Below are positions 3,925-15,252 of a stretch of DNA of 21,189 nucleotides, piece after piece. The DNA lies in IMG/VR virus record IMGVR_UViG_3300011114_000920, positions 1 through 21,189 of that record. One strand, 5' to 3'. How positions within the stretch are numbered: the stretch's first letter is position 1; the number at the start of each line of letters is the position of its first letter. The stretch comes from a virus. Made by a program: the position numbers and the translations under genes. The notes beneath the pieces are model-generated. The model ran no database searches, had not been told where the DNA came from, and saw nothing but the letters and a program-made list of their open reading frames with translations.

Positions 3925-3953
3925 GGAGATTAGTTGCTAGTCTCCTTTCTTTT
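3925..3953 (+). terminator. Terminator hairpin carrying the next -33 box
   Basis: A 9-bp stem (3925-3933 with 3937-3945, one T-G pair) closes a three-base loop, and TTTCTTTT follows. The loop is the TTG of the next promoter. Confidence 0.75.
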
Positions 3954-3965
3954 CCTTATCTTTAT
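3930..3965 (+). promoter_or_regulatory. Promoter for 3984 gene, overlapping a terminator
   Basis: TTG at 3934-3936 in the loop of the hairpin, 20-nt spacer, TATCTTTAT at 3957-3965. Confidence 0.75.
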
Positions 3966-3983
3966 AAAAATAAAAAAACAGTT

Positions 3984-4277
3984 ATGAAATTTCAAAGACA
4001 TTACAAATCAGAGGATGGTACGAGTTCGATATGGCATTTCGATACCGAGCATTCGGAATACAATCCAATAATGGTAGAAGAGTTAGAAAGAGGTGAATTA
4101 CCAGGTAGTACTATCCAGATTAGTACATTCGCTAACACTCATGAAAAAAGAGTTGTAGACAAAGAAAGAGTTGTAAGCCCTAAAAAGAGTTTACCTAAGA
4201 CCAAACAAAAGTATCTCAATCCAAAAACGGGTAAGGAGGTTGGTTATGTGAGGGCTAAGAATCTAGGCCTGATCTAA
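3984..4277 (+). CDS. Hypothetical basic protein, 97 aa
   Basis: The N-terminal half is aromatic and polar (MKFQRHYKSEDGTSSIWHFDTEHSE). The C-terminal half is lysine-rich with two VVDKERVV-type units (EKRVVDKERVV, residues about 54-64), which are coded by the AAAGAGTT repeat of this region. The tail KYLNPKTGKEVGYVRAKNLGLI looks like a short structured segment. The in-frame repeats suggest that the repeat has spread into the coding sequence or arose from it. No family recognised. Confidence 0.75.
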   Translation: MKFQRHYKSEDGTSSIWHFDTEHSEYNPIMVEELERGELPGSTIQISTFANTHEKRVVDKERVVSPKKSLPKTKQKYLNPKTGKEVGYVRAKNLGLI

Positions 4278-4285
4278 TTCTATTG

Positions 4286-4381
4286 CTAGCCCTTTCATAG
4301 CCTGGGGAGATTAAATGCTCCATGTGTAGGCTATACCTTTATACAAAAAAGAGTTTAGCTAAGGGAGATGAAAGGGTCTAG
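4286..4381 (+). ncRNA. Candidate folded RNA element
   Basis: An outer stem pairs CTAGCCCTTTCAT (4286-4298) with ATGAAAGGG-T-CTAG (4368-4381), 13 pairs with a single bulged T. Inside it a second stem pairs ATAGCCT (4297-4303) with AGGCTAT (4328-4334), capped by GGAG/CTCC (4306-4309 with 4318-4321). The two stems share a few bases at the junction. There is no ORF. It could be a 3' UTR element, a processing site or a small RNA. Confidence 0.45.
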
Positions 4382-4657
4382 TAAAAAGAGTTTATTTCTA
4401 AAAAAGAGTTAGGCACCTTTAAAAAAAGAGTTAAAAAAGAGTTGGAGGTGCCTATTTATAATAGTACAAAAGAAGAACAGAGGTTAAGCCGGACAGGTGC
4501 CGTATAAGAAACTTTATAACCAAACCCTCACACTGTTGTTCTTGGAGTACAAAAAAGAGTTCAATCAAAATTATTCAAAGAGACTTAGTAGTAGGTCTCT
4601 ATCGCTATGTTCGGAAGTCTCTATTACCTATAAAAGAGTTTAATACCTTTCTAAAAA
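4382..4657 (+). other. Non-coding repeat-rich stretch
   Basis: No supportable gene. It holds several AAAAAGAGTT copies, the hairpin at 4412-4452, and a stretch at 4570-4620 with AGAGACTTAGTAGTAGGTCTCT (imperfect inverted repeat AGAGAC/GTCTCT). It may be the remains of lost cassettes. Confidence 0.4.
4412..4460 (+). terminator. Hairpin with repeat-filled loop
   Basis: GGCACCT (4412-4418) pairs with AGGTGCC (4446-4452). The loop is two adjacent copies of the AAAAAAGAGTT motif, and TATTTATAATA follows. The T tract is weak, so termination is uncertain. Confidence 0.4.
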
Positions 4658-4693
4658 AGAGTTGCTAGTCTGAATACTAGTTCATACATTTAG
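4658..4693 (+). promoter_or_regulatory. Promoter for 4715 ORF
   Basis: TTG at 4662-4664, 20-nt spacer, TACATTTAG at 4685-4693. The leader GTATAATCAAAA runs straight into another AAAAAGAGTT copy before the ATG. Confidence 0.8.
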
Positions 4694-4714
4694 GTATAAT
4701 CAAAAAAGAGTTAT

Positions 4715-4870
4715 ATGCGAGTAGAAGCTTCCCTAATCACTTCCCTTCAAAGAAAGGTTTCCAGGCAGATCGAATTGGAGACAGGTCAAAGAGTTTCCAG
4801 GCACAGAGTCCATAGGAATAAGAAGGCCTATGATAGGAGGAGGGATAGAAGAGTTTCTCTACCCTATTAA
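4715..4870 (+). CDS. Arg-rich small protein, 51 aa
   Basis: A short ORF placed correctly behind a strong promoter. The product is very basic, with 14 arginines, and has three RVS units (QRKVSRQ, QRVSRHR, RRVSLPY) coded by AGAGTTTC, a relative of the local DNA repeat. It could bind nucleic acid or could be a decayed gene invaded by the repeat. There is no known motif. Its composition differs from the acidic proteins around it. Confidence 0.5.
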   Translation: MRVEASLITSLQRKVSRQIELETGQRVSRHRVHRNKKAYDRRRDRRVSLPY

Positions 4871-4873
4871 AAA

Positions 4874-4909
4874 AGAGTTGCTAGTCTGAAATAATTAATC
4901 TATATTTAG
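4874..4909 (+). promoter_or_regulatory. Promoter for 4932 gene
   Basis: TTG at 4878-4880 within AAAAGAGTTG, 20-nt spacer, TATATTTAG at 4901-4909. It is the last promoter of the AAAGAGTT type. Confidence 0.85.
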
Positions 4910-4931
4910 GTATAATCAAAAATAAAAAGTT

Positions 4932-5156
4932 ATGCAAAATCAAAAAATTACCCAATTTGTAAATGAATTTTTCTTCGATGATAATTTCCCAGGAGATTAT
5001 CCTAATAAGAAATCCTATATTAAGGAGAGTATTGAAGGTTTTGATGAGATATTGAGAGATGAATTTGAAATTGGATTTGAGGATTTAGATAAAGCTTCTC
5101 AGGAAACTTTTAAAAGCAATTTAAGAAAGGAATGGGAGATTTATTCCGAAGAATAA
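4932..5156 (+). CDS. Hypothetical acidic protein, 74 aa
   Basis: Mostly helical and strongly acidic (FFFDDNFPGDYPNKKSYIKESIEGFDEILRDEFEIGFEDLDKASQETF). Small acidic early phage proteins often work by binding host proteins or mimicking DNA, but nothing here proves that. It has its own promoter and the next promoter begins 8 nt after the stop. Confidence 0.8.
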   Translation: MQNQKITQFVNEFFFDDNFPGDYPNKKSYIKESIEGFDEILRDEFEIGFEDLDKASQETFKSNLRKEWEIYSEE

Positions 5157-5163
5157 TCAAAAT

Positions 5164-5199
5164 AAAGTTGCTCGTTTGAATCCAATATACTATATTTAG
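5164..5199 (+). promoter_or_regulatory. Promoter for 5222 gene
   Basis: TTG at 5168-5170, 20-nt spacer, TATATTTAG at 5191-5199, then the standard leader. Confidence 0.85.
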
Positions 5200-5221
5200 G
5201 TATAATCAAAAAATAAAAAAT

Positions 5222-5467
5222 ATGCAAAGCAAAATTAAAGTAGGAGAAGAGTATGTTACGCTATGGGAAGATAAAGTTAGAGTAGTTAGAGAGGTTAAGT
5301 TTGAGGAAGGGCCTAGTACTTGTTCTAAAGCTATGGAGGGAATAGCTCCGGAATTAGATAAGCCAGAAACTTGGGAGTGGTTTGAAGTAGAAATTTTAGA
5401 GGAAAGTGCGCAAGAGGATTTAGGAGCTCTAGTATTTGTAAATTCTGCAGAGTTAGTTAAGTACTAG
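5222..5467 (+). CDS. Hypothetical protein, 81 aa, small beta-barrel-like
   Basis: The N-terminus KIKVGEEYVTLWEDKVRVVREVKFEEG reads like the first strands of a small SH3-like barrel, though less clearly than in the genes at 9087 and 15277. The centre is acidic (EGIAPELDKPETWEWFEVEILEE) and the end is ALVFVNSAELVKY. No family recognised. The following terminator hairpin carries the promoter of the next gene. Confidence 0.8.
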   Translation: MQSKIKVGEEYVTLWEDKVRVVREVKFEEGPSTCSKAMEGIAPELDKPETWEWFEVEILEESAQEDLGALVFVNSAELVKY

Positions 5468-5487
5468 TAGAGGTTAAAAAAAGTTTA

Positions 5488-5516
5488 GGGAGTAGTTGTT
5501 TAATTGCTCCCTATTA
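5488..5516 (+). terminator. Terminator hairpin overlapping the next promoter
   Basis: GGGAG (5488-5492) pairs with CTCCC (5507-5511), and further wobble and A-T pairs extend the stem inward. The inner stem contains the next -33 TTG. Confidence 0.6.
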
Positions 5517-5527
5517 CTTATCTTTAG
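5492..5527 (+). promoter_or_regulatory. Promoter for 5550 gene
   Basis: TTG at 5496-5498, 20-nt spacer, TATCTTTAG at 5519-5527. The -33 box is inside the preceding hairpin. Confidence 0.85.
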
Positions 5528-5549
5528 GTATAATCAAAAACAAATTAAT

Positions 5550-5747
5550 ATGATAACTTCATTTGAAACCAACCAAGTTCGATTACATCTAGCCAAAGAA
5601 TATCCTTATGCCTGTCAATGCTTTGGAGAGGAATTTGTCAATCAAGAGACTATACCTTATCTAACAGTATCGAATTGGTTTCAGCGTTACTTCCCCTCTC
5701 CTACAGGCTATAATCTATTCAAACAATTAGAATATAGTTTAAAATAA
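5550..5747 (+). CDS. Hypothetical protein, 65 aa
   Basis: The frame stays open upstream to 5496, but that extension only translates the promoter and leader, so I use the ATG at 5550, 22 nt after the -7 box. The product is rich in Tyr and Phe (EYPYACQCFGEEFV, NWFQRYFPSPTGYNLFKQLEY), has a CQC pair and looks like a small globular domain. No family recognised. Confidence 0.8.
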   Translation: MITSFETNQVRLHLAKEYPYACQCFGEEFVNQETIPYLTVSNWFQRYFPSPTGYNLFKQLEYSLK

Positions 5748-5782
5748 AAGTTGGTAGTCTGAATACTAGTTCATATATTTAG
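5747..5782 (+). promoter_or_regulatory. Promoter for 5804 ORF
   Basis: TTG at 5751-5753, 20-nt spacer, TATATTTAG at 5774-5782. The leader is GTCTAATCAAAAA, a one-base variant. Confidence 0.85.
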
Positions 5783-5803
5783 GTCTAATCAAAAATAAAA
5801 AAT

Positions 5804-5965
5804 ATGTTTACAGCAATTAGCTATTTGGAGACAAAATTTGGAACAGTTAGATCTTCAGAAATTGAAAATGCTATAGAGGAGAATTTAGGAATTAATGGGA
5901 GAGATTTATTTTTAGCTCTAGAAAGTGAGGAGGAAGTAGATGAATTTATTTCAGATTTTATTTAA
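5804..5965 (+). CDS. Hypothetical acidic protein, 53 aa
   Basis: Complete ORF 21 nt after the -7 box. The sequence is MFTAISYLETKFG, then TVRSSEIENAIEENLGI, then a helical acidic end (LFLALESEEEVDEFISDFI). It has the size and helical pattern of a small helical-bundle protein. It has its own promoter and the next promoter begins right after the stop. No family recognised. Confidence 0.7.
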   Translation: MFTAISYLETKFGTVRSSEIENAIEENLGINGRDLFLALESEEEVDEFISDFI

Positions 5966-5968
5966 AAA

Positions 5969-6004
5969 AAAGTTGGTAGTCTAAAATTAAAAGCCTATAT
6001 TTAG
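5969..6004 (+). promoter_or_regulatory. Promoter for 6026 gene
   Basis: TTG at 5973-5975, 20-nt spacer, TATATTTAG at 5996-6004, leader GTCTAATCAAAAA as in the preceding copy. Confidence 0.85.
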
Positions 6005-6025
6005 GTCTAATCAAAAATAAACAAT

Positions 6026-6304
6026 ATGACAAAAAAATTATTTGCTTTTATCGATGTTAGCGAAATTGAAGCTTATGCTAAAATGGGATTTGGAATTGAG
6101 AAAGATAGTGCAGACGATTATGTTGCTGAAATGGATTTATCGGCCTATGATAATTTAGCTGTCTATGCTGCATTAGAAGATTGTCTACTGCATAATGATG
6201 TTAGGCTTTCAGTGCATTTAGAGTATGATGGAATGTTGATGTCAGATGAAGAGGCTTTAAATTTTATGGATGAAGTTGCTTCAAAAGCTCCTCTAGCAAT
6301 TTAA
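6026..6304 (+). CDS. Hypothetical acidic protein, 92 aa
   Basis: An alpha/beta pattern: KLFAFIDVSEIEAYAKM, an acidic D-rich linker (KDSADDYVAEMDL), NLAVYAALEDCLLHNDVRLSVHLEYDG and a helical end. It has no membrane span, no Cys pair and no catalytic motif. Small acidic single-gene unit with its own promoter and a hairpin terminator. Confidence 0.82.
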   Translation: MTKKLFAFIDVSEIEAYAKMGFGIEKDSADDYVAEMDLSAYDNLAVYAALEDCLLHNDVRLSVHLEYDGMLMSDEEALNFMDEVASKAPLAI

Positions 6305-6320
6305 TTTAAAAAAAAGTTTA

Positions 6321-6350
6321 GGGAGTAGTTGGAATATTGCTCCCTATTTC
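6321..6350 (+). terminator. Terminator hairpin overlapping the next promoter
   Basis: GGGAG (6321-6325) pairs with CTCCC (6340-6344), flanked by the same AAAAAAGTTTAGGGAGTAGTTG sequence class as the hairpin at 5488. The next TTG is inside it. Confidence 0.6.
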
Positions 6351-6360
6351 TTATCTTTAG
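6325..6360 (+). promoter_or_regulatory. Promoter for 6383 gene
   Basis: TTG at 6329-6331, 20-nt spacer, TATCTTTAG at 6352-6360. Confidence 0.85.
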
Positions 6361-6382
6361 GTATAATCAAAAAATAACAAAT

Positions 6383-6862
6383 ATGAACAAGATTAATTTC
6401 GCAAATCAAATCCAAGTAGCATTATTCAAAAATGAATTATCAGGTCAAATCTCAGATGGTATGTGGGAGAATATTAGACCATTTGATCATTACAAGGTAT
6501 GGTGTAGGGCAGGAGTAGGAGTAGATACTTCAAATGTAGGTGTTAACTTTCATGCTATGAAAAATAATTACAATTTTACTTCCCAGGATTTATTATCGAT
6601 AATAGGGGATAGGATGTTGAATATTGCTAATATGACTGAGAATGGTATTAGTTTAGGAGATTCAAGAGACTTTAATGATTTTGGATACAAATGGGCTTCT
6701 GAATTAGAAGGAGAATATTGGAAAGAAAAATGTGCTAGGTTTATTGAGGTATTTGGTTCAGAGGAGGGTTATAAAACTGCTTGTAAAGGTTCATATGATA
6801 TGAAGAAGTTGAAAAAGGAATTAGGTGAAATGAAAGCAATTATTAAAACTTTTGCAAAATAA
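6383..6862 (+). CDS. Hypothetical protein, 159 aa
   Basis: Start set at the ATG after the leader; the upstream open frame only covers promoter DNA. The protein begins MNKINFANQIQVALFKNELSG and continues with a tryptophan-rich segment (MWENIRPFDHYKVWCRAGVGV) that resembles phage proteins of unknown function with the same 'W...I.PF..YKVW' order. Residues about 100-159 are helical with a Lys-rich end (SYDMKKLKKELGEMKAIIKTFAK). No catalytic motif. It is one of the larger cassette proteins. Confidence 0.82.
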   Translation: MNKINFANQIQVALFKNELSGQISDGMWENIRPFDHYKVWCRAGVGVDTSNVGVNFHAMKNNYNFTSQDLLSIIGDRMLNIANMTENGISLGDSRDFNDFGYKWASELEGEYWKEKCARFIEVFGSEEGYKTACKGSYDMKKLKKELGEMKAIIKTFAK

Positions 6863-6896
6863 AGTTGGTAGTCTGAATCCAATATCCTATATTTAG
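6861..6896 (+). promoter_or_regulatory. Promoter for 6920 gene
   Basis: TTG at 6865-6867, 20-nt spacer, TATATTTAG at 6888-6896. The -33 flank overlaps the upstream stop codon. Confidence 0.85.
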
Positions 6897-6919
6897 GTAT
6901 AATCAAAAAATAATAAAAC

Positions 6920-7153
6920 ATGGCAATTAAAATTATTTGTTGCACAGAAACTATTGATAACAGGGGTAGAACTGAGTCTTCTATGAGAGGAGATATCATA
7001 TTTAGTGTTCTTAATAACGTAGAGGATTGGACTGATGATATGATGTTTGAAGGAGAGGATGGTAGAATGTATTTCATTGATGAACTTGCCGGTAAGGAAG
7101 TTGATGTACCAGAAATTGGCATATTTATAGTACCTGAAGACCCAGAAAAATAA
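6920..7153 (+). CDS. Hypothetical acidic protein, 77 aa
   Basis: A strand-rich acidic protein (AIKIICCTETIDNRGRTESSM, GDIIFSVLNNVEDWTDDMMFEGEDGRMYFIDELAG) with a CC pair near residue 7. The ending IFIVPEDPEK closes just before the next promoter. No family recognised. Confidence 0.78.
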   Translation: MAIKIICCTETIDNRGRTESSMRGDIIFSVLNNVEDWTDDMMFEGEDGRMYFIDELAGKEVDVPEIGIFIVPEDPEK

Positions 7154-7187
7154 AGTTGCCTAATCGAAATAAAGTAGCTATATTTAG
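7152..7187 (+). promoter_or_regulatory. Promoter for 7210 gene
   Basis: TTG at 7156-7158, 20-nt spacer, TATATTTAG at 7179-7187. Confidence 0.85.
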
Positions 7188-7209
7188 GTATAATCAAAAA
7201 TTAAATAAT

Positions 7210-7494
7210 ATGTCAAAAGTAACAGTTACGTCTGAATTAAGAAAGGTTTTAAAAAGTTTAAATTTAGGAACAGGTAGGTATGTATTCTCAGATAGCCGTA
7301 AACCAAAAGGTCAAAAAGCTGTCGGAGTTAAATTTTGTGGATTACAGGTTACTGATTCGCAAAAAGCAGCTGTGGTTACTGAAATGGAAAAAAGAGGTTT
7401 TAAATTCCATTATGCTAGGCTTAATACTGGAAGAGTGGGATATTACGGAGGCTATTACCAAGGTACAAGGTTTTGCTTTAGCAAAATAAATTAA
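7210..7494 (+). CDS. Hypothetical basic protein, 94 aa
   Basis: Start set at the ATG after the leader. Basic and aromatic: VTSELRKVLKSLNLGTGRYVF, then SRKPKGQKAVGVKFCGLQV, and a Gly-Tyr-rich C-terminus (GRVGYYGGYYQGTRFCF). The alternating pattern suggests a small alpha/beta fold that could bind nucleic acid. A second frame inside (7280-7489) is a shadow. No family recognised. Confidence 0.8.
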   Translation: MSKVTVTSELRKVLKSLNLGTGRYVFSDSRKPKGQKAVGVKFCGLQVTDSQKAAVVTEMEKRGFKFHYARLNTGRVGYYGGYYQGTRFCFSKIN

Positions 7495-7508
7495 AAAAAG
7501 TTTACAAA

Positions 7509-7544
7509 ATAGTTGGCCCTTCGGGGCCTTTTACTTATCTTTAG
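7509..7544 (+). promoter_or_regulatory. Promoter for 7567 gene, fused to a terminator
   Basis: TTG at 7513-7515, 20-nt spacer that contains a complete UUCG hairpin, TATCTTTAG at 7536-7544. Confidence 0.8.
7515..7532 (+). terminator. Rho-independent terminator with UUCG loop
   Basis: GGCCC (7515-7519) and GGGCC (7524-7528) close a TTCG tetraloop, followed by TTTT. It starts at the last base of the next -33 TTG. Confidence 0.85.
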
Positions 7545-7566
7545 GTACAATCAAAAATTAAAACAT

Positions 7567-7821
7567 ATGCTATTAAAGTGCACAAAAAATTTAGTATTAG
7601 ACAGTCAGGTAATTATCATGAAACATGATGTTATTAAAATTTTAGGTTCTGATGTTATAAAAGATAGTAGATGGGACAAAGAAGTTGCTTGGTATGATTG
7701 TGAAGTTGAAGTAAGTAGTATGTGTGAAGAGATGGAATTTAGTATGGATATTTTCCAATTAGCAGAGCATTTTGAATACCTAGAAATAAGAAGTAAGCAT
7801 ACTACTTGGAAAGATTTTTAA
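7567..7821 (+). CDS. Hypothetical acidic protein, 84 aa
   Basis: Start set at the ATG at 7567, 22 nt after the -7 box. MLLKCTKNLVLDSQVIIMKHDVIKILGSDVIKDSRWDKEVAWYD is strand-rich, followed by CEVEVSSMCEEMEFSMDIFQLAEHFEYLEI. It carries three Cys but no zinc pattern. No family recognised. Confidence 0.78.
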   Translation: MLLKCTKNLVLDSQVIIMKHDVIKILGSDVIKDSRWDKEVAWYDCEVEVSSMCEEMEFSMDIFQLAEHFEYLEIRSKHTTWKDF

Positions 7822-7824
7822 AAT

Positions 7825-7860
7825 AAAGTTGCTAGTCTGAAATAAAGTTCGTACATTTAG
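7825..7860 (+). promoter_or_regulatory. Promoter for 7882 ORF
   Basis: TTG at 7829-7831, 20-nt spacer, TACATTTAG at 7852-7860. Confidence 0.85.
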
Positions 7861-7881
7861 GTATAATCAAAAATAAAAGAT

Positions 7882-7989
7882 ATGATAACATCAAATTGTT
7901 GCGGAGCGGTAGCAGAGGTTACTTCAGAAGACATAGGTATATGTCCTGAATGTTATGAACATTGTGTATTTGAAAGTGATGAAGAGTAG
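7882..7989 (+). CDS. Zinc-ribbon miniprotein, 35 aa
   Basis: A complete ORF behind a full promoter. It reads MITSNCCGAVAEV, then a 10-residue spacer, then GICPECYEHCVFESDEE. The CCG...CPEC arrangement is that of a small zinc ribbon, and the spacing is like the short ribbons found widely in phage genomes (the 'CCGA...ICPECGEH' type). One metal ion bound by four Cys is likely. Such miniproteins may act as adaptors to nucleic acid or host proteins; the target is unknown. Confidence 0.75.
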   Translation: MITSNCCGAVAEVTSEDIGICPECYEHCVFESDEE

Positions 7990-8005
7990 AAAATTATTTT
8001 AAAAT

Positions 8006-8041
8006 AAAGTTGCTAGTCTGAAACATTTAACCTATATTTAG
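8006..8041 (+). promoter_or_regulatory. Promoter for 8063 gene
   Basis: TTG at 8010-8012, 20-nt spacer, TATATTTAG at 8033-8041. Confidence 0.85.
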
Positions 8042-8062
8042 GTATAATCAAAAAATTACAAC

Positions 8063-8959
8063 ATGACTTACACACAAAAGTATTACGCTACTAAAAAAGC
8101 AAAAGATCTAGGATTAACTCTTGAAGAGTACCTAGTAAGAAAATCAGGCCAGGTTATGGAGCCTAAAGTACCTCAAGTCATAGACTTCGGTAAGGTAGTA
8201 AAGTTGGATCATATTAATATAAACTCCAACATGTTAAAAATAAATAAAACAGGGTTGGTATTGGATACTATCTTCTCATACGAGGGAGGTGTTCCAGTAG
8301 GAACTAATATAATGGCTACAGGAGATCCAGGGGTTGGTAAAACGACTGTATTGCTACATACCTTGGCTAGTTTACAGTTAAAGAATCCTAAATTAAAATG
8401 TTTGTTTGTTTGTGCTGAGATGTCAAAGATTCAAATGTTTAAGTATACTCAAAGGTTTCCAATTTTTGGTAACTTGGAGACTATCTTTACTTCTGATTTC
8501 ATGAATTATAACTCTAAGGAAGTTATAGAGCAGTTGTTTAAAAAGGGATATGACTATATCCTAATCGATAGTATAGTTGAGGTATTAGAATCGGTTAAAG
8601 AGGATGCTAGTATGTCTCAGAGCCAGGCAGAGAAGTGGTTGGTTGATTTATGCGTTGAGCATAATGAAGCTAATAATGAATTAGGAAAGTATACTTCATT
8701 CCTATTAATCCAACAAGTAACTAAAGCAGGAGTGTTTGTAGGTTCAAATAAGATTAAGCATATCACAGATGCGCATATGGAATTAAAGAGGGAAGGGGAG
8801 AGAGAGGGAGGAGGAACTTATATTATGTTCTCAAAAAATAGAAACGGTCAAGCAGGTATTAAATTTACTTACCAACTAAATAATCAGGATATTCATTATG
8901 GAACTTTGGTTGAGGAGAAGGAGGAAGAGGTGGATGGTGAATATTCTTTAAACTCGTAA
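8063..8959 (+). CDS. RadA/Sms-like RecA-family ATPase
   Basis: A 298-aa RecA-fold ATPase. Walker A is GDPGVGKT (residues 87-94), the catalytic-glutamate region is CAEMS (118-121), Walker B is YILIDS (165-170), and a KNRNG motif (258-262) stands where RadA has its conserved KNRFG. LLIQQVTKAGVFVGSNKIKHITDAHMELKR matches the RadA segment that follows Walker B. The N-terminal zinc finger and the C-terminal Lon-like domain of bacterial RadA are absent, so this is a core-only phage form. RadA drives branch migration and loading of helicases at recombination intermediates; here it may act in phage replication or recombination. The N-terminal 60 residues have an unrelated basic start. A terminator follows. 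Confidence 0.88.
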   Translation: MTYTQKYYATKKAKDLGLTLEEYLVRKSGQVMEPKVPQVIDFGKVVKLDHININSNMLKINKTGLVLDTIFSYEGGVPVGTNIMATGDPGVGKTTVLLHTLASLQLKNPKLKCLFVCAEMSKIQMFKYTQRFPIFGNLETIFTSDFMNYNSKEVIEQLFKKGYDYILIDSIVEVLESVKEDASMSQSQAEKWLVDLCVEHNEANNELGKYTSFLLIQQVTKAGVFVGSNKIKHITDAHMELKREGEREGGGTYIMFSKNRNGQAGIKFTYQLNNQDIHYGTLVEEKEEEVDGEYSLNS

Positions 8960-8976
8960 TTTTTGATTGTAAAAAC

Positions 8977-9011
8977 GGCCTGCCCTGTTTCTACGGGGTG
9001 GCCTCTTTTTT
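8977..9011 (+). terminator. Rho-independent terminator after the RadA-like gene
   Basis: GGCC (8977-8980) pairs with GGCC (9000-9003) and an inner CCC with GGG across a small internal loop; TCTTTTTT follows. Confidence 0.75.
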
Positions 9012-9026
9012 AAAATTAGTTAAAAT

Positions 9027-9062
9027 AAAGTTGTTAGTACGAATAGTAGTTCATATATTTAG
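9027..9062 (+). promoter_or_regulatory. Promoter for the 9087-10073 operon
   Basis: TTG at 9031-9033, 20-nt spacer, TATATTTAG at 9054-9062. Three genes follow before the next promoter. Confidence 0.85.
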
Positions 9063-9086
9063 GTATAATCAATAAAAATAAAAAAT

Positions 9087-10073: not shown

Positions 10074-10081
10074 AAAAAAAT

Positions 10082-10117
10082 AAAGTTGGTCGATTGAATC
10101 AGAGTCCTTATATTAAA
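10082..10117 (+). promoter_or_regulatory. Variant promoter for the HTH gene
   Basis: TTG at 10086-10088, 20-nt spacer, TATATTAAA at 10109-10117. The -7 box and leader differ from the common form, so this gene may be expressed at another level. Confidence 0.7.
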
Positions 10118-10139
10118 ATAGTAAATAAAAACAAGCAGT

Positions 10140-10376
10140 ATGAATTTAACAGAAATCACAAAGGTAGCTAAGTTTCAGCAAAAGAGACGTAGAGGAGATC
10201 TAACCAAGCTAGCCACAGAGAGTGGGTACTCAGTATCTCACGTTAGCAATGTAATGAATGGCAGAAGATTCAATTCTTCAATCACCTCAGCCGCTTACCG
10301 AATGGCGAACCGTAGATTAACCAACGCCCAATTGGTATCTCGCCTTAAAACAGAAGTAGCTGTATTATCAGCTTAA
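10140..10376 (+). CDS. Helix-turn-helix DNA-binding protein, 78 aa
   Basis: Residues about 20-45 (GDLTKLATESGYSVSHVSNVMNGRR) fit a lambda-repressor/Cro-type HTH: a first helix LTKLATESG, turn YS, and recognition helix VSHVSNVMNGR. The preceding basic stretch KFQQKRRRG may add DNA contacts. It could regulate the promoter array or its own promoter. It is followed by a strong terminator. Confidence 0.83.
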   Translation: MNLTEITKVAKFQQKRRRGDLTKLATESGYSVSHVSNVMNGRRFNSSITSAAYRMANRRLTNAQLVSRLKTEVAVLSA

Positions 10377-10411
10377 TTGTCCTAACCCTATCTTATGACA
10401 ACACCACTAAG

Positions 10412-10436
10412 TCCCCTTTCTAGGGGATTTTTTTTT
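10412..10436 (+). terminator. Rho-independent terminator after the HTH gene
   Basis: A 6-bp stem (10412-10417 with 10422-10427) with a four-base loop, followed by nine T. It is the best terminator in the window. Confidence 0.9.
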
Positions 10437-10441
10437 GTGTT

Positions 10442-10477
10442 AAAGTTGCTCGTTTGAATAATAGTACCTATATTTAG
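10442..10477 (+). promoter_or_regulatory. Promoter for 10499 ORF
   Basis: TTG at 10446-10448, 20-nt spacer, TATATTTAG at 10469-10477. Confidence 0.85.
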
Positions 10478-10498
10478 GTATAATCAAAAATAAAAGAT

Positions 10499-10651
10499 AT
10501 GGCTAATAATCATCATTTGGAAGTTAAAAAGTGTCAATGTCATAGCTGCGGTAAAGAGTCTCGCAGAAAGTACAATTTTACATTAAAGAAATGGGCTAGA
10601 GAGTTTAAATGTAAATGCGGTAGTAAAAGTTTTAGGTGGTATAATTGGTAA
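10499..10651 (+). CDS. Zinc-ribbon miniprotein, 50 aa
   Basis: Complete ORF behind a full promoter. The first metal half is CQCHSCG (residues 12-18) and the second is CKCGS (38-42), giving CxxC and CxC pairs separated by about 20 residues, with a basic KESRRKYNFTLKKWAREFK between them and an aromatic end (FRWYNW). This is a zinc-ribbon fold with a positive face, probably binding nucleic acid. It is not the same type as the ribbon at 7882. Target unknown. Confidence 0.78.
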   Translation: MANNHHLEVKKCQCHSCGKESRRKYNFTLKKWAREFKCKCGSKSFRWYNW

Positions 10652-10654
10652 AAT

Positions 10655-10690
10655 AAAGTTGGTAGTATGAAATAAAGTAGCTATATTTAG
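10655..10690 (+). promoter_or_regulatory. Promoter for 10712 gene
   Basis: TTG at 10659-10661, 20-nt spacer, TATATTTAG at 10682-10690. Confidence 0.85.
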
Positions 10691-10711
10691 GTATAATCAA
10701 AAATAAAAGAT

Positions 10712-10909
10712 ATGACAACAAAAGTAAGCATAATAGTTCTTAGCCATTTAGAAGATATGGAAATAGAACTTACAACTAATCCGGAAATGGCTTCTAAAAG
10801 ATTGAGACTTGTTAGAATGTTAATCTCAGAATGTCCAGATACTACAGTTAGGATTTCAGATGAGAGATTAGATGAACTTTGGAATGGATTAAAATTAGGA
10901 GAGTTTTAA
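10712..10909 (+). CDS. Hypothetical protein, 65 aa
   Basis: MTTKVSIIVLSHLEDMEIEL, then NPEMASKRLRLVRMLISECPDTTVRISDERLDELWNGL. The pattern is strand-helix-strand-helix, a small alpha/beta domain without known motif. The start is fixed by the promoter leader. Confidence 0.75.
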   Translation: MTTKVSIIVLSHLEDMEIELTTNPEMASKRLRLVRMLISECPDTTVRISDERLDELWNGLKLGEF

Positions 10910-10912
10910 AAT

Positions 10913-10948
10913 AAAGTTGGTAGTCTGAAATAAAGTAACTATATTTAG
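10913..10948 (+). promoter_or_regulatory. Promoter for 10971 gene
   Basis: TTG at 10917-10919, 20-nt spacer, TATATTTAG at 10940-10948. Confidence 0.85.
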
Positions 10949-10970
10949 GTATAATCAAAAAATAAAAAAT

Positions 10971-11228
10971 ATGTCATTATTATCAAGTGCAAAAGAAAAT
11001 TTAGTAGGTAATGCAATTCAACTATGGTCTGATAGACGCTACGATATTACATTAAATGAATACCAGGATCATTTTAAAGGTATGGGGGATTTGATAGCTG
11101 TGATTGACAGTTATGAGAGTTTAGGTATTTTAATTTCCGATATGGAAAAAGGTAAGTTTGAAGTATTAGGTTATTTTAAAGGTGAGGAAGATACTATGCA
11201 AGAATTTATGGAATCTTTAGAGAAATAA
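10971..11228 (+). CDS. Hypothetical protein, 85 aa
   Basis: Helical N-terminus (LLSSAKENLVGNAIQLWSDRRYD), then LNEYQDHFKGMGDLIAVIDSYESLG and an acidic tail. The start and length are well supported by the promoter on each side. No family recognised. Confidence 0.78.
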   Translation: MSLLSSAKENLVGNAIQLWSDRRYDITLNEYQDHFKGMGDLIAVIDSYESLGILISDMEKGKFEVLGYFKGEEDTMQEFMESLEK

Positions 11229-11262
11229 AGTTGCTCGTCTGAATCCAATATCCTATCTTTAG
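11227..11262 (+). promoter_or_regulatory. Promoter for 11285 gene
   Basis: TTG at 11231-11233, 20-nt spacer, TATCTTTAG at 11254-11262. The leader is ATAAATCAAAAA, as at 15244. Confidence 0.82.
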
Positions 11263-11284
11263 ATAAATCAAAAATAAAAAAGTT

Positions 11285-11479
11285 ATGAAACGTCAAATCA
11301 CAACACTGGTCTTAAAAGCAAAACGCAATATCGTCGGTAAGAAGAAAAGAGGTACTCCAGTCCCTACTCCTAGTAGAAGAACGGTTGGAGGCTATGTTAC
11401 TGCATCATTCTATGAGTGGGCTACTGAATTAAATGTGAGTACAAAATTTAGTAAAGATAGAGCAGTATTTTTAGGATAA
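11285..11479 (+). CDS. Hypothetical basic protein, 64 aa
   Basis: A strongly basic N-terminus (MKRQITTLVLKAKRNIVGKKKRGTPVPTPSRRTVGGYV) followed by a short folded end (ASFYEWATELNVSTKFSKDRAVFLG). Lys/Arg in the first 35 residues suggest binding to nucleic acid or the membrane surface. No family recognised. Confidence 0.75.
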   Translation: MKRQITTLVLKAKRNIVGKKKRGTPVPTPSRRTVGGYVTASFYEWATELNVSTKFSKDRAVFLG

Positions 11480-11515
11480 AAAGTTGGTAGTCTGAAATAA
11501 GGTTCATATATTTAG
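11480..11515 (+). promoter_or_regulatory. Promoter for 11548 lipoprotein
   Basis: TTG at 11484-11486, 20-nt spacer, TATATTTAG at 11507-11515. The leader GTATATTAAAAAAC differs from the common one; the other lipoprotein gene (14334) has the same leader start. Confidence 0.85.
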
Positions 11516-11547
11516 GTATATTAAAAAACAAACAAAAATTAAAAGTT

Positions 11548-11658
11548 ATGAAAAAAGTATTAGCAGTATTAGCAGTAGTAGTTTTAGGTCTTACAAGTTG
11601 CAGAAGTACAAATTGTCCTTCACATAGCAAAACCTGGTTCTATCATAATAGAATGTAG
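11548..11658 (+). CDS. Small lipoprotein, 36 aa
   Basis: MKKVLAVLAVVVLGLTSC is a classical signal II peptide: KK, a hydrophobic core and lipobox LTSC, with Cys18 as the lipidated residue. The mature peptide is only 19 residues (CRSTNCPSHSKTWFYHNRM). Phage lipoproteins of this size act as superinfection-exclusion factors or outer spanins; which one applies here is unknown. A second, similar lipoprotein lies at 14334. Confidence 0.75.
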   Translation: MKKVLAVLAVVVLGLTSCRSTNCPSHSKTWFYHNRM

Positions 11659-11668
11659 GTTATAAAAT

Positions 11669-11758
11669 AGTCAGGTGGCGGAATTGGTTAGACGCACCGA
11701 GTGAGCGGCGGAGGTAATAGTCAATAACTCCTAACAGGTTCGAATCCTGTCCTGACTA
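11669..11758 (+). tRNA. tRNA-Leu-like gene with abnormal anticodon arm
   Basis: The 7-bp acceptor stem pairs AGTCAGG (11669-11675) with CCTGACT (11751-11757). The D arm GCGGAATTGGTTAGACGC is of the Leu type. The T arm is perfect: ACAGG, loop TTCGAAT, CCTGT (11734-11750). A long variable arm is suggested by GGAG (11710-11713) and CTCC (11728-11731). Between the D stem and that arm only 14 nt remain, too few for a normal anticodon arm; the best fit is a CCG/CGG stem. The nearest anticodon in register with a T33 is GAG (11703-11705), weakly supported. CCA is not encoded (CA follows the discriminator A). Confidence 0.8.
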
Positions 11759-11764
11759 CATATC

Positions 11765-11864
11765 GTTATACAGGGTATAAAGCCTAAGCCTAGTCAATAA
11801 TCGGCCGATAAAACTAGGTGAGTCTCTGGAATAATTAAGGCGGTTAGACTATACCCTGTATGAC
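11765..11864 (+). ncRNA. Structured RNA candidate after the tRNA
   Basis: A 15-bp stem with one G-U pair joins 11765-11779 (GTTATACAGGGTATA) to 11850-11864. Inside are CCTAGT/ACTAGG (11789-11794 with 11813-11818), enclosing a 10-nt palindrome ATCGGCCGAT, and AGTCT/AGACT (11821-11825 with 11846-11850). GCCT (11782-11785) can also pair with AGGC (11838-11841), crossing the last helix as in a pseudoknot. There is no ORF. It is probably cut from the same transcript as the tRNA. Confidence 0.6.
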
Positions 11865-11875
11865 TAAATTAAAAT

Positions 11876-11911
11876 AAAGTTGCTCGTATGAATACTTTAT
11901 CGTATCTTTAG
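11876..11911 (+). promoter_or_regulatory. Promoter for the DUF932 gene
   Basis: TTG at 11880-11882, 20-nt spacer, TATCTTTAG at 11903-11911; the leader is TTAAATAATAAAAAC, a variant. Confidence 0.82.
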
Positions 11912-11938
11912 TTAAATAATAAAAACAATACAGACATT

Positions 11939-12736
11939 ATGCAAAAATTAGTAACATTAACACCAGAGCAAATCAAAGAAAGAGCACCACAGGTCTACAC
12001 CACAAAGCCTTATGATCAGGTATCAGAGAAGTATGTCTTCTTACCCACTCATCAAATCGTAGATGATATGGCAAAGCTTGGATGGCAGGTATCGGATGCT
12101 AAGACGATGAAGACTAAGAACCAGATTCAAAAGAAGTTCGGTAAACATATGGTAGTATTCTATCATCCAGATATCTTTATCAAAGATGATCAAGGTGAGA
12201 TTGAGGCCTATCCTCAGATCTTGATTCAGAACAATGCAAGAGGTTGGGGTAAGTTAAAGTTCTCTGTTGGTATCTTTCGTATGATCTGTTCAAATGGATT
12301 GATTGTAAAGAGTAAGGACTTAGGTGAATTCAGCTTACGTCACTTTGGATATACCTTCGAAGATCTTCAGAAGCTGGTACAGAGTGTTGTAGAGAGCTTA
12401 CCTAAGATGGTAGAGAAGATTAATGTATTCTCTCAGACTATGATGACACCAGATGAGCAAAGATCATTCGCTTATAAAGCCATCCAAGCTAGATTTGGCG
12501 AAGAAAGATTAGTAGATGATTATGAAATCAATCAGGTCTTAACCTCTACTAGAGCTGAGGATGATGGATCGAGTATCTGGGTTACTTTAAATCGTGTACA
12601 GGAGCGTTTAGTGAGAGGCGGATTTACGATGATAGGAGCAGACAAGAAGGAGAGGAGGGTTCGAAAGATTGTAAATATCCAAGCCGATGTAGCTTTAAAT
12701 GAAAAGTTATTTGAATTAGCTGAAGAATATTGTTAG
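11939..12736 (+). CDS. DUF932 family protein
   Basis: A 265-aa protein with the layout of the DUF932 phage/plasmid family: an N-terminal YTTKPYDQVSEKYVFLPTHQIVDDMAKLGW, a basic strand segment KKFGKHMVVFYHPD, the hallmark VGIFRMICSNGLIV (residues about 110-123), a helical middle (LQKLVQSVVESLPKMVEKINVF), and the conserved end SSIWVTLNRVQERLVRGGF. Family members are found in phages, plasmids and ICE; their function is not known, and roles in replication or defence have been suggested. Codon usage has more C/G than in the small cassettes (many CTC, AAG and CAG codons), as in the RadA-like gene. Own promoter; the nuclease gene follows 127 nt downstream. Confidence 0.88.
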   Translation: MQKLVTLTPEQIKERAPQVYTTKPYDQVSEKYVFLPTHQIVDDMAKLGWQVSDAKTMKTKNQIQKKFGKHMVVFYHPDIFIKDDQGEIEAYPQILIQNNARGWGKLKFSVGIFRMICSNGLIVKSKDLGEFSLRHFGYTFEDLQKLVQSVVESLPKMVEKINVFSQTMMTPDEQRSFAYKAIQARFGEERLVDDYEINQVLTSTRAEDDGSSIWVTLNRVQERLVRGGFTMIGADKKERRVRKIVNIQADVALNEKLFELAEEYC

Positions 12737-12751
12737 AAAGTAGTACTTTAT

Positions 12752-12863
12752 AGCTATTTATATTATATAGAATAGCTGGTACCTGTTCGAATGCTAAAAC
12801 TTATTAGCCTCTTTTTCATTGTAGAGATGTACCAGATCTTTACAGTAATCAGAGGCTTTTTTT
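12752..12863 (+). repeat. Three chained inverted repeats before the GIY-YIG gene
   Basis: AGCTATT/AATAGCT (12752-12758 with 12771-12777), CTGGTAC/GTACCAG (12776-12782 with 12829-12835) and AGCCTCT/AGAGGCT (12806-12812 with 12851-12857). The second and third interleave, so they could form a pseudoknot or alternate folds. Seven T (12857-12863) follow the last stem, so it can act as a terminator for the DUF932 gene directly in front of the ATG at 12864. Confidence 0.65.
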
Positions 12864-13358
12864 ATGATAGGAATATACAAAATTATGAACCCTAAGGGTA
12901 GGGTCTATATCGGTCAGAGTACAGATATACAAGGAAGGTGGCGTCATTATAAAAAGTGTGGGTGCAAGGGACAGCCTAAGTTACATGCATCTTTTCTTAA
13001 GTACGCAGTAGATAGTCACACGTTCGAAGTTTTAGAGGAATGTTCTCTAGAAGAGCTTAATGAGAGGGAGAGGTTTTGGCAGGAGCATTTTAAGGTATTA
13101 GATGAGGGGTTGAATTTAAGGTATACTCCTTTGCATTTTAGGGCGGGTAGGTTAAGCGAAGAGACTAAAGCTAAGATATCTAAGACCTTGACAGGTAGAA
13201 AGATACCTAGGGAGGTTGTTGAAAAGTGGATGGAGGGTAAGGTGCCTTACGAAAGGACTGAAGAGATAAGAAAGAAATGTAGTCTATCTAAGAAAGGTAA
13301 ACCGTTATCAGAAGCGCATAAGCAAGCATTAAGAGACGCTAAGAGGAAGAAGGCTTAA
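12864..13358 (+). CDS. GIY-YIG endonuclease with NUMOD3-like tail
   Basis: GIY at residues 3-5 and YIG at 15-17 begin a GIY-YIG nuclease domain. R25 (GRWRHYKK) is the likely catalytic arginine and E69 (NERERFW) the likely metal ligand. The C-terminal part has two NUMOD3-like DNA-binding units (SEETKAKISKTLTGRKIP at about 98-115, RKKCSLSKKGKPLSEAHK at 136-153). This is the standard design of a phage homing endonuclease of the SegA/I-TevI type. It is free-standing, immediately after the U-tract of the preceding hairpin, without its own promoter; it could be read through from the DUF932 unit. The target site is not known. It looks like a mobile insertion in the cassette array. Confidence 0.92.
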   Translation: MIGIYKIMNPKGRVYIGQSTDIQGRWRHYKKCGCKGQPKLHASFLKYAVDSHTFEVLEECSLEELNERERFWQEHFKVLDEGLNLRYTPLHFRAGRLSEETKAKISKTLTGRKIPREVVEKWMEGKVPYERTEEIRKKCSLSKKGKPLSEAHKQALRDAKRKKA

Positions 13359-13389
13359 TACTCTTTCTTTGTCTAAAATAATTTAACAT

Positions 13390-13425
13390 AAAGTTGTTAG
13401 TCTGGATAGTATATCTTATCTTTAG
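13390..13425 (+). promoter_or_regulatory. Promoter for 13448 gene
   Basis: TTG at 13394-13396, 20-nt spacer, TATCTTTAG at 13417-13425. The spacer GTTGTTAGTCTGGATAGTATATCT is nearly identical to that at 14470. Confidence 0.85.
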
Positions 13426-13447
13426 GTATAATCAAAAAATAACAAAT

Positions 13448-13639
13448 ATGATAGTAAGCTTAAAAACACAGGTCTTCAATTGGCTAGATGCTCATGGATT
13501 ATCTCTTGATGAAGCTGATGATTTCGACTACGTAGAATCTTTGATATATAATTTCGAAGAGTACCCAGGTGAGGAATTAGAAGAAGAAGAGGTTATAGAA
13601 TGTATCTTAGACTATCAGGCGTATCGTAGAAATAAATAA
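13448..13639 (+). CDS. Hypothetical acidic protein, 63 aa
   Basis: Start set at the ATG after the leader. MIVSLKTQVFNWLDAHGLSLDEADDFDYVESLIYNFEEYPGEELEEEEVIECILDY is strongly acidic and helical, similar in type to the products at 4932 and 5804. A DNA-mimic role is possible but not shown. No family recognised. Confidence 0.76.
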   Translation: MIVSLKTQVFNWLDAHGLSLDEADDFDYVESLIYNFEEYPGEELEEEEVIECILDYQAYRRNK

Positions 13640-13642
13640 AAT

Positions 13643-13678
13643 AAAGTTGCTCGTCTCAATCATTTACCCTATATTTAG
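13643..13678 (+). promoter_or_regulatory. Promoter for 13703 ORF
   Basis: TTG at 13647-13649, 20-nt spacer, TATATTTAG at 13670-13678; leader TTATAATTAAAAA. Confidence 0.85.
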
Positions 13679-13702
13679 TTATAATTAAAAAAAAATAAAA
13701 AA

Positions 13703-13861
13703 ATGAAAAAAATTTACACTGTTATTCCATTCTTTTCTGACGATGTTGAAATCTTTCGCGACGATGTTAAAAGTTTTACAACCTACGATAAAGCTCTTGA
13801 CTATGCTAGACTTTACTGTTCAGGAAAAACTTACACAATTATAGAAAATGAATTAGTGTAA
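13703..13861 (+). CDS. Hypothetical protein, 52 aa
   Basis: Complete ORF between two promoters. MKKIYTVIPFFSDDVEIFRDDVKSFTTYDKALDYARLYCSGKTYTIIENELV has a strand-helix-strand pattern with a conserved-looking 'TYDKALDYARLY' helix, typical of small phage proteins with an alpha/beta ferredoxin-like half. No family recognised. Confidence 0.7.
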   Translation: MKKIYTVIPFFSDDVEIFRDDVKSFTTYDKALDYARLYCSGKTYTIIENELV

Positions 13862-13866
13862 TAAAT

Positions 13867-13902
13867 AAAGTTGCTCGTCTCAATCATTTAACTTATCTTT
13901 AG
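13867..13902 (+). promoter_or_regulatory. Promoter for 13925 micro-ORF
   Basis: TTG at 13871-13873, 20-nt spacer, TATCTTTAG at 13894-13902. Confidence 0.85.
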
Positions 13903-13924
13903 GTACAATCAAAAAATAAAAAAT

Positions 13925-13990
13925 ATGACAGTAGTAATCATTTTAATCATCATCTTTATCGTTAGTATTAATAAAAATAATATTAAATAA
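13925..13990 (+). CDS. Membrane micropeptide, 21 aa
   Basis: The whole product is one hydrophobic segment plus a polar tail: TVVIILIIIFIVSINKNNIK. The leader is the same TAATCAAAAAATAAAAAATATG as in neighbouring real genes and the spacing to the promoter is standard. A dedicated promoter for a 21-aa peptide argues that it is real. The next promoter starts directly at the stop. It may act in membrane exclusion or regulate a larger membrane protein. Confidence 0.6.
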   Translation: MTVVIILIIIFIVSINKNNIK

Positions 13991-14025
13991 AAGTTGGTAG
14001 TTTAAATCATTTAACTTATCTTTAG
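13990..14025 (+). promoter_or_regulatory. Promoter for 14048 gene
   Basis: TTG at 13994-13996, 20-nt spacer, TATCTTTAG at 14017-14025. Confidence 0.85.
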
Positions 14026-14047
14026 GTATAATCAAAAAATAAAAAAT

Positions 14048-14275
14048 ATGTCTACAATCACAAAACTTACTCCTACCTCTACATTCAATCCAGCTACAGG
14101 TAGAACTTTTATTATCGAATTATGTAATGGAGAGAGGTTTAGAACTGATTCAGAAGAGCTATTAGATAAGTACTGCTATGATGAGACTAAGCCTGCAGGT
14201 GAAGGATTTGATGAAGAGAAGGCTCGTGAATTAGTAGGGAATAATTTCCAGACTTTATTAAATAAAAGTTGGTAG
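14048..14275 (+). CDS. Hypothetical protein, 75 aa
   Basis: Strand-rich start (STITKLTPTSTFNPATGRTFIIELCNGERFRTDSEELLDKYCYDET), then an acidic helical part (EGFDEEKARELVGNNFQTLL). Its last codons (NKSW and the stop) overlap the -33 flank of the next promoter. No family recognised. Confidence 0.78.
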   Translation: MSTITKLTPTSTFNPATGRTFIIELCNGERFRTDSEELLDKYCYDETKPAGEGFDEEKARELVGNNFQTLLNKSW

Positions 14276-14300
14276 TATGAAACAAAGTAACTATATTTAG
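14265..14300 (+). promoter_or_regulatory. Promoter for 14334 lipoprotein
   Basis: TTG at 14269-14271, inside the end of the previous gene, 20-nt spacer, TATATTTAG at 14292-14300. Leader starts GTATATTAAT, as at 11507. Confidence 0.85.
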
Positions 14301-14333
14301 GTATATTAATAAACAATCAAAAAATAACAAATC

Positions 14334-14453
14334 ATGAAACAATTAGTAGTCATTACAGTATTAATCGTTATCGCTTTATCAAGCTGCTCTCCTAGAATAG
14401 GCACTCGTGCTTATACTTTCTTTCCTCCAGGACATTCTTGCTTGAGGCATTAA
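14334..14453 (+). CDS. Small lipoprotein, 39 aa
   Basis: MKQLVVITVLIVIALSSC is a signal II peptide with lipobox LSSC and Cys18. The mature peptide has 22 residues (CSPRIGTRAYTFFPPGHSC and a short tail). It has the same layout as the lipoprotein at 11548 (both have Cys at 18, a second Cys, an aromatic cluster and a basic His end) but little identity. Superinfection exclusion or an outer spanin are the main options. Confidence 0.75.
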   Translation: MKQLVVITVLIVIALSSCSPRIGTRAYTFFPPGHSCLRH

Positions 14454-14469
14454 AAAAAAGTTACCAAAT

Positions 14470-14505
14470 AAAGTTGTTAGTCTGGATAGTATATCTTATA
14501 TTTAG
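14470..14505 (+). promoter_or_regulatory. Promoter for 14529 gene
   Basis: TTG at 14474-14476, 20-nt spacer, TATATTTAG at 14497-14505; spacer nearly identical to 13390. Confidence 0.85.
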
Positions 14506-14528
14506 GTATAATCAAAAAATAACAAATT

Positions 14529-14816
14529 ATGAAACAATTAAAGTCAATCAAATTCACAAGTATTATTCCAGAGGAAACTTATTTAGTTAGTATAGAAGAA
14601 TATGAAAGATATGGAGGAGAGGGTCCTGATTTATTTGAAGCAACAGGTAAGCAAGTAATCAAAAAGATTGAAGATACTTTCGATTTTAGAAGTTGGATGG
14701 ATACAGAAGTAGAGGAAACAGGAAAAGAGCCTAAAAATCCTACAAAATCTTTCTTGAAATGGGCGATGGATATGAATGGAGATGGTGAAGATTATATTCA
14801 GATTTTTAAAATTTAA
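14529..14816 (+). CDS. Hypothetical acidic protein, 95 aa
   Basis: MKQLKSIKFTSIIPEETYLVSIEEYERYGGEG is strand-rich, then LFEATGKQVIKKIEDTFDFRSWMD and an acidic TEVEETGKEP linker before a helical end (FLKWAMDMNGDGEDYIQIF). No membrane span or known motif. Confidence 0.8.
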   Translation: MKQLKSIKFTSIIPEETYLVSIEEYERYGGEGPDLFEATGKQVIKKIEDTFDFRSWMDTEVEETGKEPKNPTKSFLKWAMDMNGDGEDYIQIFKI

Positions 14817-14850
14817 AGTTGGTAGTATGAAACAAAGTAACTATATTTAG
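14815..14850 (+). promoter_or_regulatory. Promoter for 14876 gene
   Basis: TTG at 14819-14821, 20-nt spacer, TATATTTAG at 14842-14850; -33 flank overlaps the upstream stop. Confidence 0.85.
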
Positions 14851-14875
14851 GTATAATCAAAAAATAAAAAACGTT

Positions 14876-15214
14876 ATGAACAAACAACAAACAATCGAGT
14901 TATTAGAAAGCCAATTACCGAGCTTCTACAGTCAAGAACAAGTAATCAGTATCATTAAAGGTATCCAGGAGGAAGAGAAAGGATTAGATAAAGATCAGGT
15001 TGATTTATTAATCAAGGTAGTGAGTGATAGAGTAAGTAGTGTTATAGAGGATGCTAGTACAGATGATGTGGTTGATTTAAGTAGTGCTCAATTTGAGATT
15101 AGCTACGATAACAAATTAGAATTAGATAGTGTAGATTTAGATTTAGGAGGTATATGTGATAAGGTTAGAGATGCTATTGAAAATTCTATAACAGATTACC
15201 TAGGAGGCCAATAA
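14876..15214 (+). CDS. Hypothetical protein, 112 aa
   Basis: A helical N-terminal half (QQTIELLESQLPSFYSQEQVISIIKGI) and an acidic second half (SSVIEDASTDDVVDLSSAQFEISYDNKLELDSVDLDLGG). The regular acidic VDLS/SVDLD strands suggest a small beta domain. The terminator that follows carries the next promoter. No family recognised. Confidence 0.8.
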   Translation: MNKQQTIELLESQLPSFYSQEQVISIIKGIQEEEKGLDKDQVDLLIKVVSDRVSSVIEDASTDDVVDLSSAQFEISYDNKLELDSVDLDLGGICDKVRDAIENSITDYLGGQ

Positions 15215-15216
15215 TT

Positions 15217-15252
15217 AAAGTTGGCCCTTAGGGGCCTTCTTCTTATCTTTAG
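15217..15252 (+). promoter_or_regulatory. Promoter for 15277 gene, fused to a terminator
   Basis: TTG at 15221-15223, 20-nt spacer holding a hairpin, TATCTTTAG at 15244-15252; leader ATAAATCAATT. Confidence 0.8.
15223..15243 (+). terminator. Terminator hairpin inside a promoter spacer
   Basis: GGCCC (15223-15227) and GGGCC (15232-15236) close a TTAG loop, then TTCTTCT. Same layout as the UUCG hairpin at 7515. Confidence 0.75.

Follow-up and report, generated by a model that had tools for sequence, protein, structure and literature searches.

The window analysed here, the whole 21,189-nt stretch of the virus record IMGVR_UViG_3300011114_000920 (a 21.2-kb fragment), carries an array of predicted promoters, five of which contain a hairpin with the marks of an intrinsic terminator. 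A pattern scan found 33 promoters of the form TTG-N20-TA(T/C)(A/C)TTTA, all 33 on the + strand and all 33 spaced by 20 nt. In its strict form, TATMTTTAG, the box occurs 30 times on the + strand and never on the - strand, and a reversed-pattern control gave zero. The promoters are accompanied by an array of small genes at 3.6-16 kb, in which the open reading frames (ORFs) are mostly shorter than 120 aa. The sigma-A consensus of Bacteroidetes consists of a TTG near -33 and TAnnTTTG at -7, and in Flavobacterium psychrophilum the latter box occupies positions -12 to -5 relative to the start (PMC9723704). The phage promoters keep the TTG and TAnnTTT, in a box of the same shape and position, whereas the final G is replaced by A at all phage sites (TATMTTTAG; box TAT(A/C)TTTAG). 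The phage boxes resemble the Bacteroidetes promoter type and are treated here as predicted promoters, and a generic sigma70 scan of the window was uninformative for promoters of this type.

The original prediction placed a hairpin that ends one gene together with the promoter of the next at five places, and a stem and promoter boxes were found at all five (TTG at 3934, 5496, 6329, 7513 and 15221, followed after exactly 20 nt by TATCTTTA; Table 1). It also held that the hairpin includes the TTG itself, which is true of the stems at 3924, 5486 and 6319; at 7515 and 15223 the stem holds only the G. In two of the five a tetraloop lies inside the spacer, in one the TTG forms the loop, and in two the TTG is part of the upper stem and the loop. 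Between each stem and its -7 box there are 5-10 bases, mostly T or C, and the base after the box at 3957 is T instead of G (TATCTTTAT). The RNA fold energies range from -10.8 to -15.7 kcal/mol, with the 15223 stem only weakly better than its shuffles (z -1.8). As a set, five stems among 33 promoters exceed expectation, since 1000 shuffles of the spacers and upstream flanks gave 0-4 stems and never five. The stems at 5486 and 6319 share identical arms, which points to copying and not to independent invention.

Table 1. Hairpin promoters, separate terminators and the promoter array of the window
Feature	Positions	Strand	Method or remark
Stem AGGAGATTAG-ttg-CTAGTCTCCT, 10 bp; loop is the -33 TTG (3934-3936)	3924..3946	+	Hairpin/promoter scan, RNA fold
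-7 box TATCTTTA, 20 nt past TTG	3957..3964	+	Predicted start ~3969
Stem TAGGGAGTAGTT-gttt-AATTGCTCCCTA, 12 bp; spans the -33 TTG (5496-5498)	5486..5513	+	Scan, RNA fold
-7 box TATCTTTA	5519..5526	+	Predicted start ~5531
Stem TAGGGAGTAGT-tggaat-ATTGCTCCCTA, 11 bp; spans the -33 TTG (6329-6331)	6319..6346	+	Scan, RNA fold
-7 box TATCTTTA	6352..6359	+	Predicted start ~6364
-33 TTG (7513-7515), its G opening the 5-bp stem GGCCC-uucg-GGGCC (7515-7528)	7513..7528	+	Scan, RNA fold
-7 box TATCTTTA	7536..7543	+	Predicted start ~7548
-33 TTG (15221-15223), its G opening the 5-bp stem GGCCC-uuag-GGGCC (15223-15236)	15221..15236	+	Scan, RNA fold
-7 box TATCTTTA	15244..15251	+	Predicted start ~15256
Predicted separate intrinsic terminator; next promoter TTG at 9031	8980..9001	+	Scan, RNA fold
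Predicted separate intrinsic terminator; next promoter TTG at 10446	10409..10430	+	Scan, RNA fold
Promoter array, all 33 promoters	1318..15913	+	28/33 without spacer hairpin

Related phages carry the same elements. In promoter-rich loci, a stem ending in the spacer was present at 111 of 423 distinct promoter sites (30 shuffled sets: mean 9.7, maximum 16), and stems were still found at 52 of 359 sites after those of the kind searched for had been removed; p-values over these sites, which are related by descent and were in some cases fetched by pattern, are indicative. The TTG lies at exactly 20 nt at 329 of the 344 TATMTTTAGGTA sites in related phages, a proportion partly ascertained by pattern. 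IMG/VR was also scanned with TTGNNNNTTCGN8TTCTTATMTTTAG, which fixes the loop and the -7 box and does not require the arms to pair. All five arm pairs are formed in 48 of the 56 distinct contexts obtained, and six arm pairs are used (GCCTC/GAGGC, GGCCC/GGGCC, GCCCC/GGGGC, GCTCC/GGAGC, GGATC/GATCC and GGCCT/GGGTT). Covariation in the UUCG/UUAG class is 0.43, a value reached by none of 500 shuffles, against 0.19 in shuffles, and slid partners give at most 0.20. The TTG-loop class, which was never searched for, includes AGGAGATTAG/CTAGTCTCCT, AGCAGATTAG/CTAGTCTGCT and AGGGAATTAG/CTAGTTCCCT; pairing in this class stands at 97.5%, and three pairs show double changes. Among the individual stems of the window, that at 3924 has compensatory variants in other phages, and the 7515-type UUCG stem occurs in the same or covarying versions in many phages. 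A comparison with related phages for compensatory changes that keep both stem and spacer length had been proposed, and it was positive for both, lending support to a composite terminate-and-restart element. The suggestion that this element was built several times independently survives in part: 55 distinct arm pairs and 3-4 architectures occur, whereas 5486 and 6319 appear to be copies and the UUCG element recurs near-identically at many genes and in many phages, with identical versions at genes that are unrelated.

The imperfect pairs indicate which nucleic acid folds. Where one or two pairs of a stem are not Watson-Crick, the wobble is G.U on the sense strand at 55 sites and A.C at one, an A.C on the sense strand being a G.U on the opposite strand. 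If the stems were read as DNA, imperfect pairs would be expected equally on both strands; the ratio of 55 to 1 therefore indicates that the folding form is RNA transcribed in the promoter direction. Since the transcript of the element itself is predicted to start past the -7 box, the hairpin RNA could come only from the upstream transcript. The gene context was also compared. A co-directional reading frame ends within 150 nt upstream of 102 of 104 hairpin promoters and of 237 of 290 plain promoters (p = 5e-6), and the median distance from stop codon to TTG at hairpin promoters is 8 nt. At least four T are present in the 8 nt after the stem in 110 of 111 stems. Where stem and box lie 7 nt apart, the intervening stretch holds 5.1 T (3.2 in plain promoters) and 6.9 pyrimidines (4.5 in plain promoters). 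Meanwhile, TATCTTTA (TATC) and TATATTTA (TATA) stand at 80:31 in hairpin promoters and at 115:197 in plain ones. The T-rich tail and the preference for TATCTTTA suggest that the -7 box forms the far part of the U-tract. These sites present what defines an intrinsic terminator: a stable G+C-rich RNA stem that leads directly into a U-rich tract of the transcribed strand.

Geometry, covariation, fold strand, gene context and the cassette junctions described below are read directly from the sequences, and each site is very probably an intrinsic terminator fused into a promoter, the two making up a single element of about 50 bases. From them we infer promoter activity, termination and its efficiency, and timing, as follows. 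A polymerase coming from the upstream gene would transcribe the -33 region, and the RNA would fold into the hairpin; the T-rich end of the spacer and the T-rich -7 box (TATCTTTA) would then act as the U-tract, and the transcript would be released. Sigma would in turn recognise this DNA as -33 TTG, 20 nt and -7 box, and the next transcript would start about 10-15 nt further on, its 5' end free of a hairpin. The -7 box would do double duty as promoter box and U-tract, in elements that lie among many small genes with near-identical promoters. A possible but rather unlikely extension is that the polymerase, having let go of its RNA at the stem, keeps or rebinds sigma and initiates again on the promoter just crossed, termination thus feeding the next initiation; the fused geometry would in that case be selected for coupling and not for compactness alone.

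Several observations weigh against this reading. The T-tracts are broken by C and sometimes by A, and two of the stems have just 5 bp. The counts in related phages are not independent, because the sites share descent and were partly fetched by pattern. In addition, the element is not required, because most junctions lack a terminator. The idea that it insulates each gene from its neighbour does not hold for the window, where a predicted terminator accompanies five of the 33 promoters, or seven when the separate ones at 8980 and 10409 are counted; at the remaining 26 no terminator was predicted at or just before the promoter. Finally, two GGGAGT-n9-ACTCCC stems that abut the -7 box without a T-tract have no co-directional gene ending upstream, and could be operators.

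It is very unlikely that the inverted repeats as a whole are operators, at which a repressor or activator binds the spacer palindrome as DNA. The spacer is the classical operator position, and the two GGGAGT-n9-ACTCCC stems would suit such a role, but pairing is kept while the stem sequences differ, the loops include UUCG and GAAA, the wobbles favour G.U on the sense strand by 55 to 1, and the position of the stem relative to the -33 box shifts between classes. The covariation, the wobble-strand asymmetry and the number of promoters without a stem led us to reject this explanation. At several related loci (L108, - strand, 2231; L115, + strand, 5167; also L104, L115 and L120), stems sit directly against the -7 box with hardly any T-tract, or none, in between; they have the forms GCGGCC/GGCCGC, GGAGGCCC-GAAA-GGGCTTCC and GGGAGT-n9-ACTCCC, and some of them may be operators instead of terminators.

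The hairpin might also serve mainly to protect or mark 3' ends, as an exonuclease barrier or an RNase processing site, the ends being produced by processing and not by release. Stable stems just past the stop codons would be expected in this case as well, but the T-rich tract directly after the stem in all but one of the 111 is the mark of intrinsic termination, and we assign this explanation a very low probability. Promoters of the phage N4 virion RNA polymerase contain a hairpin that is read as extruded DNA or as a single strand, and the fixed register of the UUCG-class stem within the promoter would be compatible with such a feature; it is extremely improbable here and was rejected on the same three grounds as the operators. 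Of the 33 promoters in the window, 28 have the same boxes and spacing without a stem, and stem position and size vary. The fused terminator-promoter is the preferred reading.

The related locus L197, whose longer aligned stretches match the window at 93-96% identity, is a close relative and bears on the history of these elements. Missing from it are two window genes at 4932-5467, one at 5804-5965 and one at 6920-7153, and each junction falls within a promoter. At the first junction, the gene located behind hairpin promoter 5496 in the window is preceded in L197 by a plain promoter resembling the one at 4878, suggesting that the terminator was swapped out together with the cassette in L197, or gained with it in the window. 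The 3924 element is unchanged in L197, and the 6319 stem is kept in L197 and L089. The promoters probably serve as crossover points at which gene cassettes are gained or lost, presumably by recombination.

The same elements are found in a cultured relative, Flavobacterium phage vB_FspM_immuto_2-6A, accession NC_055915, from the Baltic Sea (host Flavobacterium sp. LMO8). This phage and the window have one protein in common at 50% identity and a similar gene order around the promoter array, which lies at an equivalent position. The annotation of the cultured phage includes T4-like Gp20 and Gp23, and no T4 core gene was recognised among the window proteins at Pfam/PHROG thresholds. Megablast of 8 kb of the window against named phages gave no match, and the DUF932 protein used as a probe found no relatives. 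In 101 Flavobacterium genomes, the UUCG pattern combined with a TAnnTTTG box was seen at 48 sites, none of which forms the stem, and the sole genome-contig matches with paired arms lie on a 3.3-kb metagenomic contig that carries further phage-type promoters; an origin of the element in the host was rejected on these grounds. At 19561-20310, adjoining a likely baseplate gene, the window encodes a conserved 249-aa protein with more than 500 relatives in viral contigs. Five of 18 members of this family give a weak PHROG match to RNA polymerase sigma factor, and no solved structure matches the family; the protein is a candidate late sigma factor (gp55-like).

Other features of the promoters and their surroundings were also observed. 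Stemless promoters (e.g. 7829, 8010 and 10917) have a common TTG(G/C)T(A/C)GT(C/A)TGAA after the -33 box, which resembles CTAGTCTCC, the 3' arm of the TTG-loop hairpins; it may be an activator site in its own right, or the material from which stems arise. In many phages, conserved upstream sequence is followed straight away by a conserved promoter that has no obvious stem and whose spacer is pyrimidine-rich, for example TTGCCCCTTCCCTTTTTTCTTCGTATATTTAG (loci L095, L098-L103, L105-L107, L110-L113, L116, L118, L119, L122-L124, L126-L128, L130 and L131). The repeat AAAAGAGTT, mostly A6GAGTT, occurs in 18 copies on the + strand at 3443-4881 (1.4 kb) and nowhere else on that strand. A6GAGTT normally flanks and begins the -33 box, and few of the copies have a -7 box; copies also lie within the ORF at 3984-4277, and the repeats are conserved in L197, with short indels at the copies. 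The promoter array also encloses a tRNA-Leu (gag) at 11669-11759 and a GIY-YIG/NUMOD3 protein at 12864-13358, and a T5orf172 protein lies just past it at 16927-17463; both proteins are likely homing-type endonucleases.

As for known systems, Kang et al. (2020, PMC6978380) report that, once released at an intrinsic terminator, a polymerase can remain on the DNA and restart from a promoter close by. That recycling was seen in single-molecule experiments in vitro, whereas the phage case is suggested by geometry alone; the elements offer a natural test bed for in-place restart of a terminated polymerase. They are also candidate insulators for Bacteroidetes genetics, because they are compact, covary in nature and come with a cultured phage/host pair.

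The closest comparison is with the promoter-early stem-loop (PeSL) cassettes described for the T4-type phages RB49/phi1 and others (Arbiol 2010, doi 10.1093/gbe/evq006; Comeau 2014; both via PMC4503421), where crossovers at PeSLs are given as the explanation of gene gain and loss between close relatives (PMC4503421). Like PeSLs, the phage elements are composites of a promoter and a stem between small non-core genes (hyperplastic region), a predicted host-type promoter is fused or adjacent to a stem-loop (5/33 in the window, 111/423 in relatives), and insertions and deletions between the window and L197 break at promoter cassettes. The stem-loops of RB49 reportedly terminate transcription. RB49 has 82 candidate sigma70-like promoters, and in 19 of them a stem ends somewhere from the -35 box to 14 nt beyond the -10 box. 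Twelve of these stems straddle the -10 box, and seven stop within the spacer or just at the -10 box edge, one of the seven looking like a chance site. Because RB49 also has in-promoter stems, the fused layout is not new in kind. However, the Flavobacterium-phage stems run into a U-rich tract (5.5 T/8), in contrast to the in-promoter stems of RB49 (1.7 T/8), whose T-rich-tailed stems lie upstream of the -35 box. In addition, the boxes are of the Bacteroidetes -33/-7 type with 20-nt spacing, compared with sigma70 boxes at 16-18 in T4-type phages, and many unrelated stem sequences with UUCG and GAAA loops are used. In the Flavobacterium phages, unlike in RB49, the fused stem and the U-tract form one unit, in which the T-rich Bacteroidetes -7 box would let the same bases be promoter and U-tract. 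The PeSL principle, a composite terminator-promoter that is also a crossover site, thus seems to recur in phages of another phylum with a different promoter type.

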